Part shown: in pieces, positions 29,920 to 63,320 of the stretch
Layout of the letters: each line of letters opens with the position of its first letter
Numbering within the stretch: position 1 is the first letter of the stretch
Origin: Anaeropeptidivorans aminofermentans
Lineage (GTDB): Bacteria > Bacillota > Clostridia > Lachnospirales > UBA5962
Reading direction: 5' to 3'
NCBI RefSeq assembly: GCF_940670685.1
Contig: NZ_OW711693.1
Span: 868,001 to 932,000 of the forward strand
Length of the DNA: 64,000 bases
Position numbers and translations under genes: made by a program
The notes under the pieces: generated by a model
What the model was told of the DNA's origin: nothing
Database searches by the model: none
The model's input: only the letters and a program-made list of their open reading frames with translations

Positions 29920-30150
29920 TTGAGCAAATAAAAAACTGCAACACAAGGCCACAGTCGATTTTAAATATATCTCCCCTCCAATCTTCGTCTGTGTTCCGCA
30001 GAAAAGAATGCAATCTTATAAGCAGGTCTTCTGACTCACATATCCTAACCATATCAGCCTTCCCAGTATATCCAGTGGCATTTTGATATGATTCCATGTT
30101 TACAGCGGCGGCACCGTGCAAGAATTTCACTTGGCTTCCCTTTGCATATA
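29920..30150 (-). ncRNA. Cobalamin riboswitch with expression platform
   Basis: Read on the minus strand, the conserved elements occur in order: GGGAAGCCAAGTGAAATTC, GCACGGTGCCGCCGCTGTAA, the B12 box GCCACTG, GGGAAGG, then GTCAGAAGACCTGC. The aptamer is about 30015-30150. A T-rich run (GCAGTTTTTTATT, near 29925-29935) downstream suggests a terminator-based switch. The first gene downstream on this strand is cbiM, over 600 nt away, consistent with repression of cobalt uptake by cobalamin. Confidence 0.92.
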
Positions 30151-30186
30151 AGAGTGTATTTAATTAAATCAGGCAGTATCTGACAA

Positions 30187-35578: not shown

Positions 35579-35605
35579 ATAAAAAAGCCCCTGAGGGCTT
35601 TTTAA
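35579..35605 (-). terminator. Terminator of mgtA
   Basis: Plus-strand AAAAAAGCCC, CTGA, GGGCTTTTT; on the minus strand the stem is followed by TTTTTTT. It overlaps the mgtA stop codon. Confidence 0.9.
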
Positions 35606-38247
35606 AACCATTGTCCGAAACGGCGGATATAGGCTTTTTTAATTAACTGAACGGCTACACAGTAAGATAAAAGTATCAATATGAGCCATGGGGCAAAGGT
35701 AAGGGGTAGCCTCATCATGTCGATTCCTACGGCAATGTTTGTAAAACCGATAAAAATCGCTGCAATAGTTACCAGAGCAGTTGAAACAACAAGGGGCATA
35801 GAGGCTCTGCTTTGAATAAAAGGTATTTTAGCGGTACGGATCATATGGATTATGATAATCTGAGAGGTTGTTCCGAAAACAAACCAGCCGCATTGGAAAA
35901 GGGGAGAAAGCTCTTTTGTATTTGCTCCTATAACATACCACATGATGCCAAAACAAAGTATATCAAAGAGTGAGCCAAGGGGCCCCATGGTCATCATAAA
36001 GCTTAATATAGAGGAAGTTTCCCATTTTCTTGGCATTTCAATATATTCTTCATCTACGGAATCAAAAGGCATTCCCAATTGGGAAAAATCGCAGAGAAGG
36101 TTTTGAACCAATATCTGAACCGGAAGCATAGGCAGAAAGGGCAGGAATATACTTGCGGCTACCACCGAAAGCATATTGCTGAAATTTCCGCTTACAGCCA
36201 TTTTAATGTATTTTGTAATATTACCGAAGGTTTTACGGCCTTCGATAACTCCTTCTTCAAGAACCATAAGGTCTTTTTTCAAAAGGATAATATCGGCGGT
36301 TTCCTTGGCTATATCAACGGCGGAATCTACAGAAATTCCTACGTCTGCCTGATGAAGGGCAGGCGCATCGTTTATTCCGTCGCCCATGTAGCCTACGGTA
36401 TGGCCGTTTTCCTGAAAGGCTTTTACTACCCGCTGTTTTTCGATGGGAGAAAGCTTTGAAAAGAGATTGCAGATCTTTACGGCATTTAAAAGCGCCGTAT
36501 CGGTCATTTCAGAAACATCTTTTCCCGAAAGGCGGTTAGATACGTTTATTCCTACCTTATTGCATACCTTTACGGCAACGCCTTCGCTGTCTCCCGTTAA
36601 AACTACGGTTCTTACGCCGTGCTGTTTTAATGCTGTGACTGCGCTTTTGGCGCTTTCTTTCGGGGGATCAAGAAAACCGATAAATCCCAGAAGGACCATA
36701 TCACTTTCATGCGCTACGCTAAAGGCATTGGTATCCGGAACATGGTTTTTCTGCGCTACGGCAATCATTCTTAAGCCTTCGGCATTATGCTTTTCGTAGG
36801 TTCTCAAGGCATCGTTTTTAATTTCTTCGCTTAAAGGCGAAACCTCGCCGTTATATTCCGCGTAGGAGCATATGGCGATAATTTCTTCCACGGCACCTTT
36901 TGTGATAAGCTGGCGCTTACCGTTTTTATCTTCAAGAACAACACTCATTCTCCTTCTGGAAAAATCAAAGGGGATTTCGTCTATGATTTTATAGCTTTCT
37001 TTCAGCGAATCCAGTTCATTTTCATGAGCTCTGTTGATGATGGCAAGGTCGATAAGGTTTTTAAGGCCCGTCTGAAAATAACTGTTTAAAAAACCATGGC
37101 GAAGCACCCTTAAATCATCTTCTCCATGAGAATTCATATATTTTTCAAGGATAATCTTGTCTTCTGTCAATGTGCCCGTTTTATCTGTGCAGAGAATATC
37201 CATTTCCCCGAAGGATTGGATAGAGCCTAAGGATTTGACGATAACTTCATGTTTAGACATATTGATTGCGCCTTTTGCCAAGGTAGAAGTCATAATCACC
37301 GGAAGCATTTCAGGGGTAAGGCCTACGGCGATACTGATGGCAAAAAGCAGAGAGCTAATCCAATCGCCTTTTGTAATGCCGTTTATTATAAATATTGCAG
37401 GGATCATAATCAGCATAAACTTTATCAGCAAAGAGCTTACCGAATCCACTCCCCGCTCGAAGCTGTTTTTTGCTCTGTTTCCTGAAAGGCTTTCCGCCAT
37501 GGAGCCAAAGTAGGTTTCGTTTCCGATGGATAGTACAACAGCCGTTGCGCTTCCGCTTACCATATTGGAGCCCATGAAGCCGATATTTGATAAATCCGTA
37601 AGGGAAGCTTCGGCAGCAGATTTTAAATCCTTGAATTTTTCCACGGGATTTGATTCTCCCGTAAGAGCGGATTGGGCGACAAAAGCGTCTTTTGCTGATA
37701 TAAAACGGATATCAGCAGGAATGATATCCCCTGCGGATAGCTTTACAATATCGCCTTTTACCACTTCTTCTAAAAGAACCTCTATTAATTTTCCGTCCCT
37801 GATAACGTCCACCTTATTGGAAATCATTTTGGAAAGCCCTGCTGCGGCTGCATTGGAACGCTCGCTTTGTATAAATGCTACAAGGCTTGAAACTACTACA
37901 AGGGCAAGGATAATGGATATGGTAAGATAATCAGGCCGATAGGATAAAACAACATCGGTAAAAAATGTAATGGCGGCGATTATAATCAGAACAATATTAA
38001 AGGGATTTATAATAGCCTCCTTAAGCCTTATGAGAGAGCTGTTGGACTTTCCCGATGTAATGATATTAAGCCCGTCTTCCTCCTGCCTTTTTTCGGCTTC
38101 CTCCTGAGAAATGCCCTGAAGCCCTGTCTCAAGTTTCTCAAGAACGCTGTCAATGGGCATTCCCGAATACTCTTTAAGTAAAGATTCGCTTAATTTTCTG
38201 TTTTGAATTTTAAGGTTTTCTGTCTTTCCGTTTTTAAATAACTTCAT
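35602..38247 (-). CDS. mgtA: Magnesium-importing P-type ATPase
   Basis: This 881-residue P3B-type ATPase imports Mg2+ at the cost of ATP. Landmarks are ALTGES (actuator, about residues 195-199), AVGLTPEMLPVIMTSTLAKGA, the phosphorylated aspartate in CTDKTGTLTED (about Asp355), and KGAVEEII. TGDSEGVAVKVC and MGDGINDAPALHQADVGISVD follow, then six C-terminal helices. TPEMLP identifies the MgtA/MgtB class. I use ATG 38245-38247 (AAAGGGTG upstream); a GTG three codons earlier is less likely. Expression is probably set by the upstream leader ORF and terminator. Confidence 0.94.
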   Translation of the reverse strand: MKLFKNGKTENLKIQNRKLSESLLKEYSGMPIDSVLEKLETGLQGISQEEAEKRQEEDGLNIITSGKSNSSLIRLKEAIINPFNIVLIIIAAITFFTDVVLSYRPDYLTISIILALVVVSSLVAFIQSERSNAAAAGLSKMISNKVDVIRDGKLIEVLLEEVVKGDIVKLSAGDIIPADIRFISAKDAFVAQSALTGESNPVEKFKDLKSAAEASLTDLSNIGFMGSNMVSGSATAVVLSIGNETYFGSMAESLSGNRAKNSFERGVDSVSSLLIKFMLIMIPAIFIINGITKGDWISSLLFAISIAVGLTPEMLPVIMTSTLAKGAINMSKHEVIVKSLGSIQSFGEMDILCTDKTGTLTEDKIILEKYMNSHGEDDLRVLRHGFLNSYFQTGLKNLIDLAIINRAHENELDSLKESYKIIDEIPFDFSRRRMSVVLEDKNGKRQLITKGAVEEIIAICSYAEYNGEVSPLSEEIKNDALRTYEKHNAEGLRMIAVAQKNHVPDTNAFSVAHESDMVLLGFIGFLDPPKESAKSAVTALKQHGVRTVVLTGDSEGVAVKVCNKVGINVSNRLSGKDVSEMTDTALLNAVKICNLFSKLSPIEKQRVVKAFQENGHTVGYMGDGINDAPALHQADVGISVDSAVDIAKETADIILLKKDLMVLEEGVIEGRKTFGNITKYIKMAVSGNFSNMLSVVAASIFLPFLPMLPVQILVQNLLCDFSQLGMPFDSVDEEYIEMPRKWETSSILSFMMTMGPLGSLFDILCFGIMWYVIGANTKELSPLFQCGWFVFGTTSQIIIIHMIRTAKIPFIQSRASMPLVVSTALVTIAAIFIGFTNIAVGIDMMRLPLTFAPWLILILLSYCVAVQLIKKAYIRRFGQWF

Positions 38248-38320: not shown

Positions 38321-38345
38321 AATAAAAAAACGCCTCTAAAGGCGC
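38321..38345 (-). terminator. Attenuator-type terminator in the mgtA leader
   Basis: On the minus strand CGCCT, TTAG, AGGCG forms a short GC-rich stem followed by seven T residues. It lies after the leader ORF stop and about 75 nt before the mgtA start, so it would cut transcription before mgtA unless prevented. Confidence 0.75.
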
Positions 38346-38358
38346 ACGGTATTAAATC

Positions 38359-38472
38359 CTATGATAAAAAGCCCATGGAATTTAAGCCTACGGTCCGCCT
38401 ATAGGTTATATTTTTAAATATGAAGCTCTTATAAGCCCTAGTATACTGACTACTGACAGGGTATTCTTCCAT
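38359..38472 (-). CDS. Putative 37-residue leader peptide of mgtA
   Basis: A short ORF begins at ATG 38470-38472 behind a strong AAGGAG site 8 nt upstream. It starts MEEYPVSSQYTRAYKSF and ends GLNSMGFLS, with tandem rare-type arginine codons AGG CGG near codons 25-26. It is read from the promoter at 38517-38545 and stops 14 nt before the terminator stem. No protein family is recognised. Its placement between promoter and attenuator argues for a regulatory leader peptide, analogous in logic to mgtL of enteric bacteria but without sequence similarity. Confidence 0.6.
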   Translation of the reverse strand: MEEYPVSSQYTRAYKSFIFKNITYRRTVGLNSMGFLS

Positions 38473-38516
38473 GGTTTCATCTCCTTCTTAATATGAAATA
38501 TATCGGCATCACCTTA

Positions 38517-38545
38517 AGCATAGCACGGCCCGGCTATAGTGTCAA
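38517..38545 (-). promoter_or_regulatory. Strong promoter of the mgtA leader
   Basis: On the minus strand TTGACA (38540-38545) and TATGCT (38517-38522) are exactly 17 bp apart. Transcription would begin near 38510, giving a leader of about 260 nt before mgtA. Confidence 0.8.
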
Positions 38546-63064: not shown

Positions 63065-63162
63065 GGGGGTAGAAGGGTCGCTGGTGTGCCCTCCGGTCTT
63101 CAAAACCGGTAATAGCGGCTTATACCCGCTTAGGTGGGTTCGATTCCCACATACCTCCGCCA
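63065..63162 (+). tRNA. selC: Selenocysteine tRNA (anticodon TCA)
   Basis: The 98-nt tRNA has an 8-nt acceptor arm (GGGGGTAG with ATACCTCC, last pair mismatched), a D arm AGGG/CCCT, and an anticodon stem CCGGT/ACCGG with TCA at 63100-63102. A long variable arm (GCGG/CCGC), a T arm GTGGG/CCCAC, discriminator G and encoded CCA are also present. The long extra arm and TCA anticodon are diagnostic. No terminator follows before the glycine riboswitch. Confidence 0.97.
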
Positions 63163-63197
63163 ATTAGAGGTTAAAATTAAATATGTTTTGGATGAAA

Positions 63198-63320
63198 GCT
63201 ATGGGAGAGACTATTTCATATAGCGCCGAAGGTTTAAGCTTATAGTTTGCCGACTATAAGTGATAATCTCAGGCAAAAGAACCATAGCGGGACAACACTC
63301 TGAAGGGTTCCAACAGAGAA
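63198..63320 (+). ncRNA. Glycine riboswitch (single aptamer)
   Basis: Conserved elements occur in order: GGGAGAGAC, GCGCCGAAGG, a variable stem with CTTATAGTTTGCCGACTATAAG, then CTCAGGCAAAAGAACC and GGGACAACACTCTG. P1 is GCTATGG (63198-63204) with CCATAGC (63282-63288). It sits in front of grdX, so glycine probably turns on the glycine reductase operon. Confidence 0.92.

Follow-up and report, generated by a model that had tools for sequence, protein, structure and literature searches.

A putative leader-peptide attenuator upstream of mgtA in Anaeropeptidivorans aminofermentans

The mgtA leader and its parts

What controls transcription of the magnesium pump gene mgtA in Anaeropeptidivorans aminofermentans? 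We examined this question in a 64-kb stretch of the genome, the whole of which we call the window. The mgtA product scores 1115.5 bits against TIGR01524 (cut-off 610.75), and the gene is preceded, as a preliminary description of the sequence had claimed, by a promoter, a Shine-Dalgarno (SD) sequence, a 37-codon open reading frame (ORF) and an intrinsic terminator, all of which we found (Table 1). On the minus strand, the -35 element TTGACA (38545-38540) lies 17 nt from a TG-extended -10 element, TATGCT (38522-38517), transcription is predicted to start at about 38510, and relatives have comparable promoter sequences at the same position. The leader ORF begins with an ATG at 38472. Its codons 25-26 are AGG CGG, within which AGGCG (38400-38396) is identical to the 3' arm of the terminator, a 6-bp stem with four G-C pairs.

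Table 1. Features of the mgtA leader in the window
Feature	Position	Strand	Basis
Promoter, sigma-70 type, TTGACA-17-TATGCT with extended TG	38517..38545	-	scan, 10/12 consensus
Shine-Dalgarno AAGGAG of the leader ORF	38481..38486	-	sequence
S, CCATGGAA, start-codon region, pairs with A	38467..38474	-	complementarity and partner-swap test
Leader peptide ORF, 37 codons, MEEYPVSSQYTRAYKSFIFKNITYRRTVGLNSMGFLS	38359..38472	-	sequence; family comparison; model match
Codons 2-8, EEYPVSS, proposed ribosome-pausing or destabilising segment	38449..38469	-	leader alignment
Putative antiterminator, P2 plus AGGCG (codons 25-26):CGCCT; predicted -20.0 kcal/mol	38340..38400	-	folding
P2 hairpin astride the leader stop codon, TTAAATTC/GGATTTAA plus inner ATGG/TCAT	38352..38385	-	folding and covariation
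A, TTCCATGG, 5' strand of the stop-codon hairpin; partner is S or the 3' strand	38373..38380	-	partner-swap test
Intrinsic terminator, GCGCCT-TTAG-AGGCGT plus T7; predicted -7.9 kcal/mol	38324..38345	-	scan, folding
mgtA, magnesium-translocating P-type ATPase	35602..38247	-	TIGR01524 above cut-off

Taken alone, the promoter and terminator matches in a scan of the window leader are barely above shuffles, and the total folding energy of this leader is ordinary (z = -0.07). It is because the leader is conserved, and not from its own sequence statistics, that we judge it to be above chance. The preliminary description had also seen no M-box riboswitch here, and covariance-model searches agree: RF00380 was not found in the window at the gathering threshold, a permissive M-box search of the leader gave no match, and the whole 3.76-Mb genome is without one. 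The leader RNA matches no Rfam family, and the leader peptides have no match in Pfam or NCBIfam. Elsewhere in the window, a cobalamin riboswitch (30004-30164, minus strand), a selenocysteine tRNA (63065-63158, plus strand) and a glycine riboswitch (63192-63294, plus strand) score above their Rfam gathering thresholds.

Conservation among relatives and at other MgtA loci

MgtA genes 63-70% identical to that of the window, from several Clostridia and MAGs, have a leader at the same place. The peptides of these relatives include MDSNPRSRLCDF (Scatolibacter, L082), MDGNPRSRLNDL (L051), MDSCPRSQMYGF (L042), MDGKPRSPLCGF (L083) and MEDSPRRLNLDN (L091), of which the window peptide, MEEYPVSSQYTRAY, is a divergent version. 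Common to the relatives are a peptide start of the form M-[D/E]-x-x-P-R-S, a covarying stop-codon hairpin and a terminator; in the leader alignment, EEYPVSS (codons 2-8) of the window corresponds to M-D-x-x-P-R-S. A covariance model, R1, built from seven other mgtA leaders with the window excluded, matches the window leader at 38488-38325 (35.4 bits, E = 1.5e-8), its sole match in the 64 kb. It also matches L210, L211, L091, L084, L089 and L086, all of them mgtA leaders, L089 being without a clear ORF. A scan of 246 genomes of the order, with a strict filter that missed the window leader found by direct search, gave strong matches only to the mgtA leaders of G092 and G192. In the genomes searched the leader is specific to mgtA. 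The weak R1 matches in the 246 genomes (E above 6e-4) look like chance, and a gapped DNA pattern, SD-ATGGA-GAAGT, run over 391 genomes proved uninformative, returning mainly the starts of ordinary proteins.

The window has the family's stop-codon hairpin followed by a terminator. It has lost the CGA AGT codons that follow Pro in the relatives' PRS, reading CCT GTC AGT AGT instead, and L210 and L211 likewise match R1 without CGA AGT. Judged from these sequences, CGA AGT after Pro is a common but not a defining feature of the R1 leader family. Where Arg precedes Ser or Arg in the motif it is encoded by CGA in 20 of 27 cases (some unrelated ORFs included); in the corresponding mgtA genes CGA makes up 4.7% of the Arg codons (p = 1.6e-21). 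The following codon is usually AGT. A near-invariant CGA AGT (or GGA AGT) lies at about codons 4-8 in L003, L005, L033, L041, L042, L051, L082, L117, L127 and others, and is kept even where the neighbouring residues and the P1 helix vary.

A wider family is visible in the starts of the ORFs. A short, SD-preceded ORF with Asp or Glu at residue 2 is present in 54 of 146 distinct MgtA upstream regions, against 4.0 in dinucleotide shuffles, and ahead of only one of 23 other P-type ATPase genes. Asp or Glu occupies residue 2 in 41 of the 55 ATG ORFs with a strong SD, and acidic-pair starts occur at 29 loci (1.7 shuffled). Because the combination of SD, ATG and acidic residue is enriched in this way, we take the leader ORF to be translated. 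Typical starts are MDSDGSP, MDSDSSPRS, MDADGSPRR, MEPESS, METDAKP and MDAGSSG, and the hosts include Trichococcus, Bacillus sp. FJAT-27264, Romboutsia, Tissierella, Peptostreptococcus, Gemmiger and a Spirochaetales MAG. Many MgtA loci have no recognisable leader.

An M-box aptamer lies upstream of the leader ORF at about 19 loci (18 leader-bearing loci and L099). The order M-box, leader-peptide ORF and then a single mgtA is seen at L005, L006, L033, L046, L099, L102-L104, L112, L113, L129, L131, L132, L135, L192, L195 and L206, and possibly amounts to two-sensor control by Mg2+. The suggestion in the preliminary description of an independent, peptide-based switch therefore holds in part: the window leader is a candidate translation-controlled attenuator without an M-box, but it is not unique, belonging to a widespread family often found downstream of one. 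At six loci (L063, L115, L117, L124, L127 and L151), ORFs beginning MDSDGSP, MDSDSSPRS or MDADGSPRR lie about 110 nt upstream of mgtA with little space for a terminator, and may be a variant in which the same sensor acts on translation. Another six (L051, L082, L042, L083, L065 and L210) have a hairpin with apparent compensatory changes in the last 45 nt or so before mgtA, its loop containing the mgtA SD and its 3' arm including the start codon. This is perhaps a translational layer of control; such a hairpin is not evident in the window.

Constraint on the peptide appears to be confined to its start. In the leader alignment, residues 1-8 (acidic, Pro, Ser) are conserved and recall the start of enteric MgtL, which destabilises ribosomes; Arg25-Arg26 and the peptide body are not conserved, the C-terminal two thirds being of varied composition. 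An in-frame block of 18 nt distinguishes the leader ORF of L210 from that of L211, and the two show six synonymous against three nonsynonymous changes; the Pro-Asp within the start motif accounts for two of the six. Between L042 and L056 there are 12 nonsynonymous and two synonymous differences, and since these are mostly nonsynonymous the peptide body is unconstrained. What appears to count, from such comparisons, is how the peptide starts and that the ORF is translated, and not the rest of the peptide. The proposal that a ribosome positioned on the Arg codons acts as the sensor thus finds no support, the two residues not being conserved as amino acids; the stretch matters as RNA.

RNA pairings and a three-state model

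For nine leaders RNAalifold predicts three elements: a helix P1 (GAAGUC/GGCUUC), the stop-codon hairpin P2, whose apical part holds the stop codon in the aligned leaders, and the terminator. This structure has 12 pairs with changes on both sides, a count reached by none of 500 shuffles, which leave shared ancestry in, and slid controls collapse. The pairing of AGGCG with CGCCT, put forward earlier as an antiterminator, extends this conserved P2. Pairing of the window's terminator 5' arm to the ORF is 0.95, against 0.41 with shuffled flanks (p = 0.007); for L051 p = 0.013, and for eight leaders combined p = 0.001. This test used a curated set of eight leaders in place of a cruder statistic over 19 loci, which was not significant (p = 0.22-0.42) and had taken the wrong ORF for L051.

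The second pairing foreseen from the sequence, CCATGGAA with TTCCATGG (S:A), is likewise a conserved, covarying and competing helix. S pairs with A in all nine leaders, and its own partner is on average better than a swapped one (p = 0.0018, with shared ancestry left in by the swaps); the control pairing of S with the other P2 strand (S:B) gave no signal (p = 0.38). Compensated changes are found in the window (CCAUGGAA/UUCCAUGG), L065 (UAAUGGAUA/UAUCCAUUA) and L042 (GACAUGGAC/GUCCUAUGUC). The parts of the leader are conserved, P2 and S:A covary, and on this comparative evidence S:A emerges as the central competing helix of the putative switch.

We consider it rather likely that the mgtA leader is a leader-peptide transcription attenuator that works like enteric MgtL, in which early translation of the tiny peptide probably decides whether mgtA is transcribed. 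The model has three mutually exclusive RNA states. With no ribosome engaged, S would pair with A and the terminator would form (off). If a ribosome lingers on the first eight or so codons, or ribosomes keep entering them and being lost, S would be covered and A would not; P2 would then form and its extension would take the 5' arm of the terminator (on). Finally, a ribosome at the stop codon would melt P2, and the terminator would form again (off). Codons 2-8 would be the sensor: their acidic residues, Pro and Ser would weaken the first steps of elongation, presumably when Mg2+ is low. In E. coli, ribosomes drop off the EPDP start of MgtL at low Mg2+ and mgtA is transcribed, and acidic repeats early in an ORF make ribosomes pause (PMC11282234). 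This parallel and the gene regulated suggest Mg2+ as the signal.

Equilibrium folding of the window leader gives a terminator probability of 0.86 when free, 0.00 with a ribosome on the first codons and 0.94 with a ribosome at the stop codon, the ribosome-free value ranging over 0.86-0.91 in two computations. Masking by an early ribosome lowers the probability in five of nine leaders (window, L042, L056, L083 and L210), produces no drop in L051, L082 and L065, and leads to a rise in L093. How an RNA folds during transcription is poorly represented by the equilibrium fold of the finished molecule, and so we treat these folds as support for the predicted antitermination, not as proof of it. Weighing against the model, besides the mixed folds of the relatives, are the negative statistic over 19 loci, the loss of CGA AGT in the window, the nonsynonymous excess between L042 and L056, and the many MgtA loci with no recognisable leader.

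Alternative readings

Ribosome drop-off alone might suffice. At low Mg2+, ribosomes would leave at codons 2-6, the ORF would be ribosome-free, and P2 and the antiterminator would form, with S:A merely limiting re-initiation. Such drop-off is documented for the EPDP start of E. coli MgtL (PMC11282234), and the acidic-pair and Pro starts of the leaders resemble it, the acidic pair being far more frequent than in shuffles. However, because S pairs with A, a ribosome-free window leader is predicted to terminate, and the conserved CGA AGT codons of the relatives hint at pausing. We regard pure drop-off as unlikely. A new riboswitch, in which the RNA structure itself would sense Mg2+ and the ORF would be incidental, would fit the conserved covarying helices and the match of L089 to R1 without a clear ORF. 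It sits poorly with the excess of SD, ATG and acidic residue 2 over shuffles, with the in-frame indel and synonymous excess between L210 and L211, with the stop codon in the apical part of P2 and with the lack of an Rfam match, and strikes us as quite improbable.

A ribosome stalled for want of Arg (codons 25-26) or of some other amino acid might instead switch mgtA, and AGG CGG does sit exactly in the antiterminator arm. Yet no amino acid forms a run in the leader ORF, the Arg of these codons is not conserved, and what lies downstream is a gene for a Mg2+ pump rather than an amino-acid gene, so we hold amino-acid attenuation to be very improbable. We give almost no credence to the ORF encoding a functional small protein such as a pump partner, of which E. 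coli MgtS is an example. The conserved N-terminus would suit such a protein, but the C-terminal two thirds are unconserved, varied and overlapped by conserved RNA elements, and neither Pfam nor NCBIfam has a match.

Relation to known systems

A literature search among open-licence papers for a Gram-positive mgtA leader peptide found no description, and the element appears to be a so far undescribed Gram-positive counterpart of the enterobacterial MgtL switch. On a more general reading we are evenly divided: it holds that the leaders form a widespread and so far undescribed group of peptides that sense Mg2+ in Clostridia and certain other Gram-positives. Their conserved acidic-Pro-Arg(CGA)-Ser start would stall ribosomes or destabilise them when Mg2+ is low, and they would act either by themselves through a three-state attenuator, as in the window, or behind an M-box as two-sensor control. 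If right, control of Mg2+ import through an acidic leader peptide would recur across Gram-positives and not only in enterobacteria, and would offer a second system for asking how nascent acidic and Pro sequences sense Mg2+, one that the intrinsic terminator makes easy to assay. It would also present a natural tandem of riboswitch and ribosome sensor before a single gene.

Like enterobacterial mgtL-mgtA, the window has a short, SD-led leader ORF with an acidic/Pro start (MEEYP) directly upstream of mgtA, and in both the outcome of translation is predicted to select the RNA fold and hence mgtA transcription. The shared element would be the working principle, the likeness of MEEYP to EPDP being one of kind and not of alignment. 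The systems differ in termination, which is Rho-dependent in enterics whereas a conserved intrinsic terminator is found here; in the RNA, with its hairpin on the leader stop codon; in the PRS with CGA AGT conserved in the window's relatives; and in the hosts, here Clostridia and some other groups. The M-box (ykoK leader) controls Mg2+ transporter genes in Gram-positives, as the present leader precedes a Mg2+ pump, and lies just upstream of the ORF in some relatives while being absent here; unlike the proposed switch, it is not ribosome-dependent. With the trp and his attenuators the leader shares an ORF, competing helices, an intrinsic terminator and a ribosome whose position would be the switch, but in place of repeated sensor codons it has eight conserved first codons, and its target is a metal pump.
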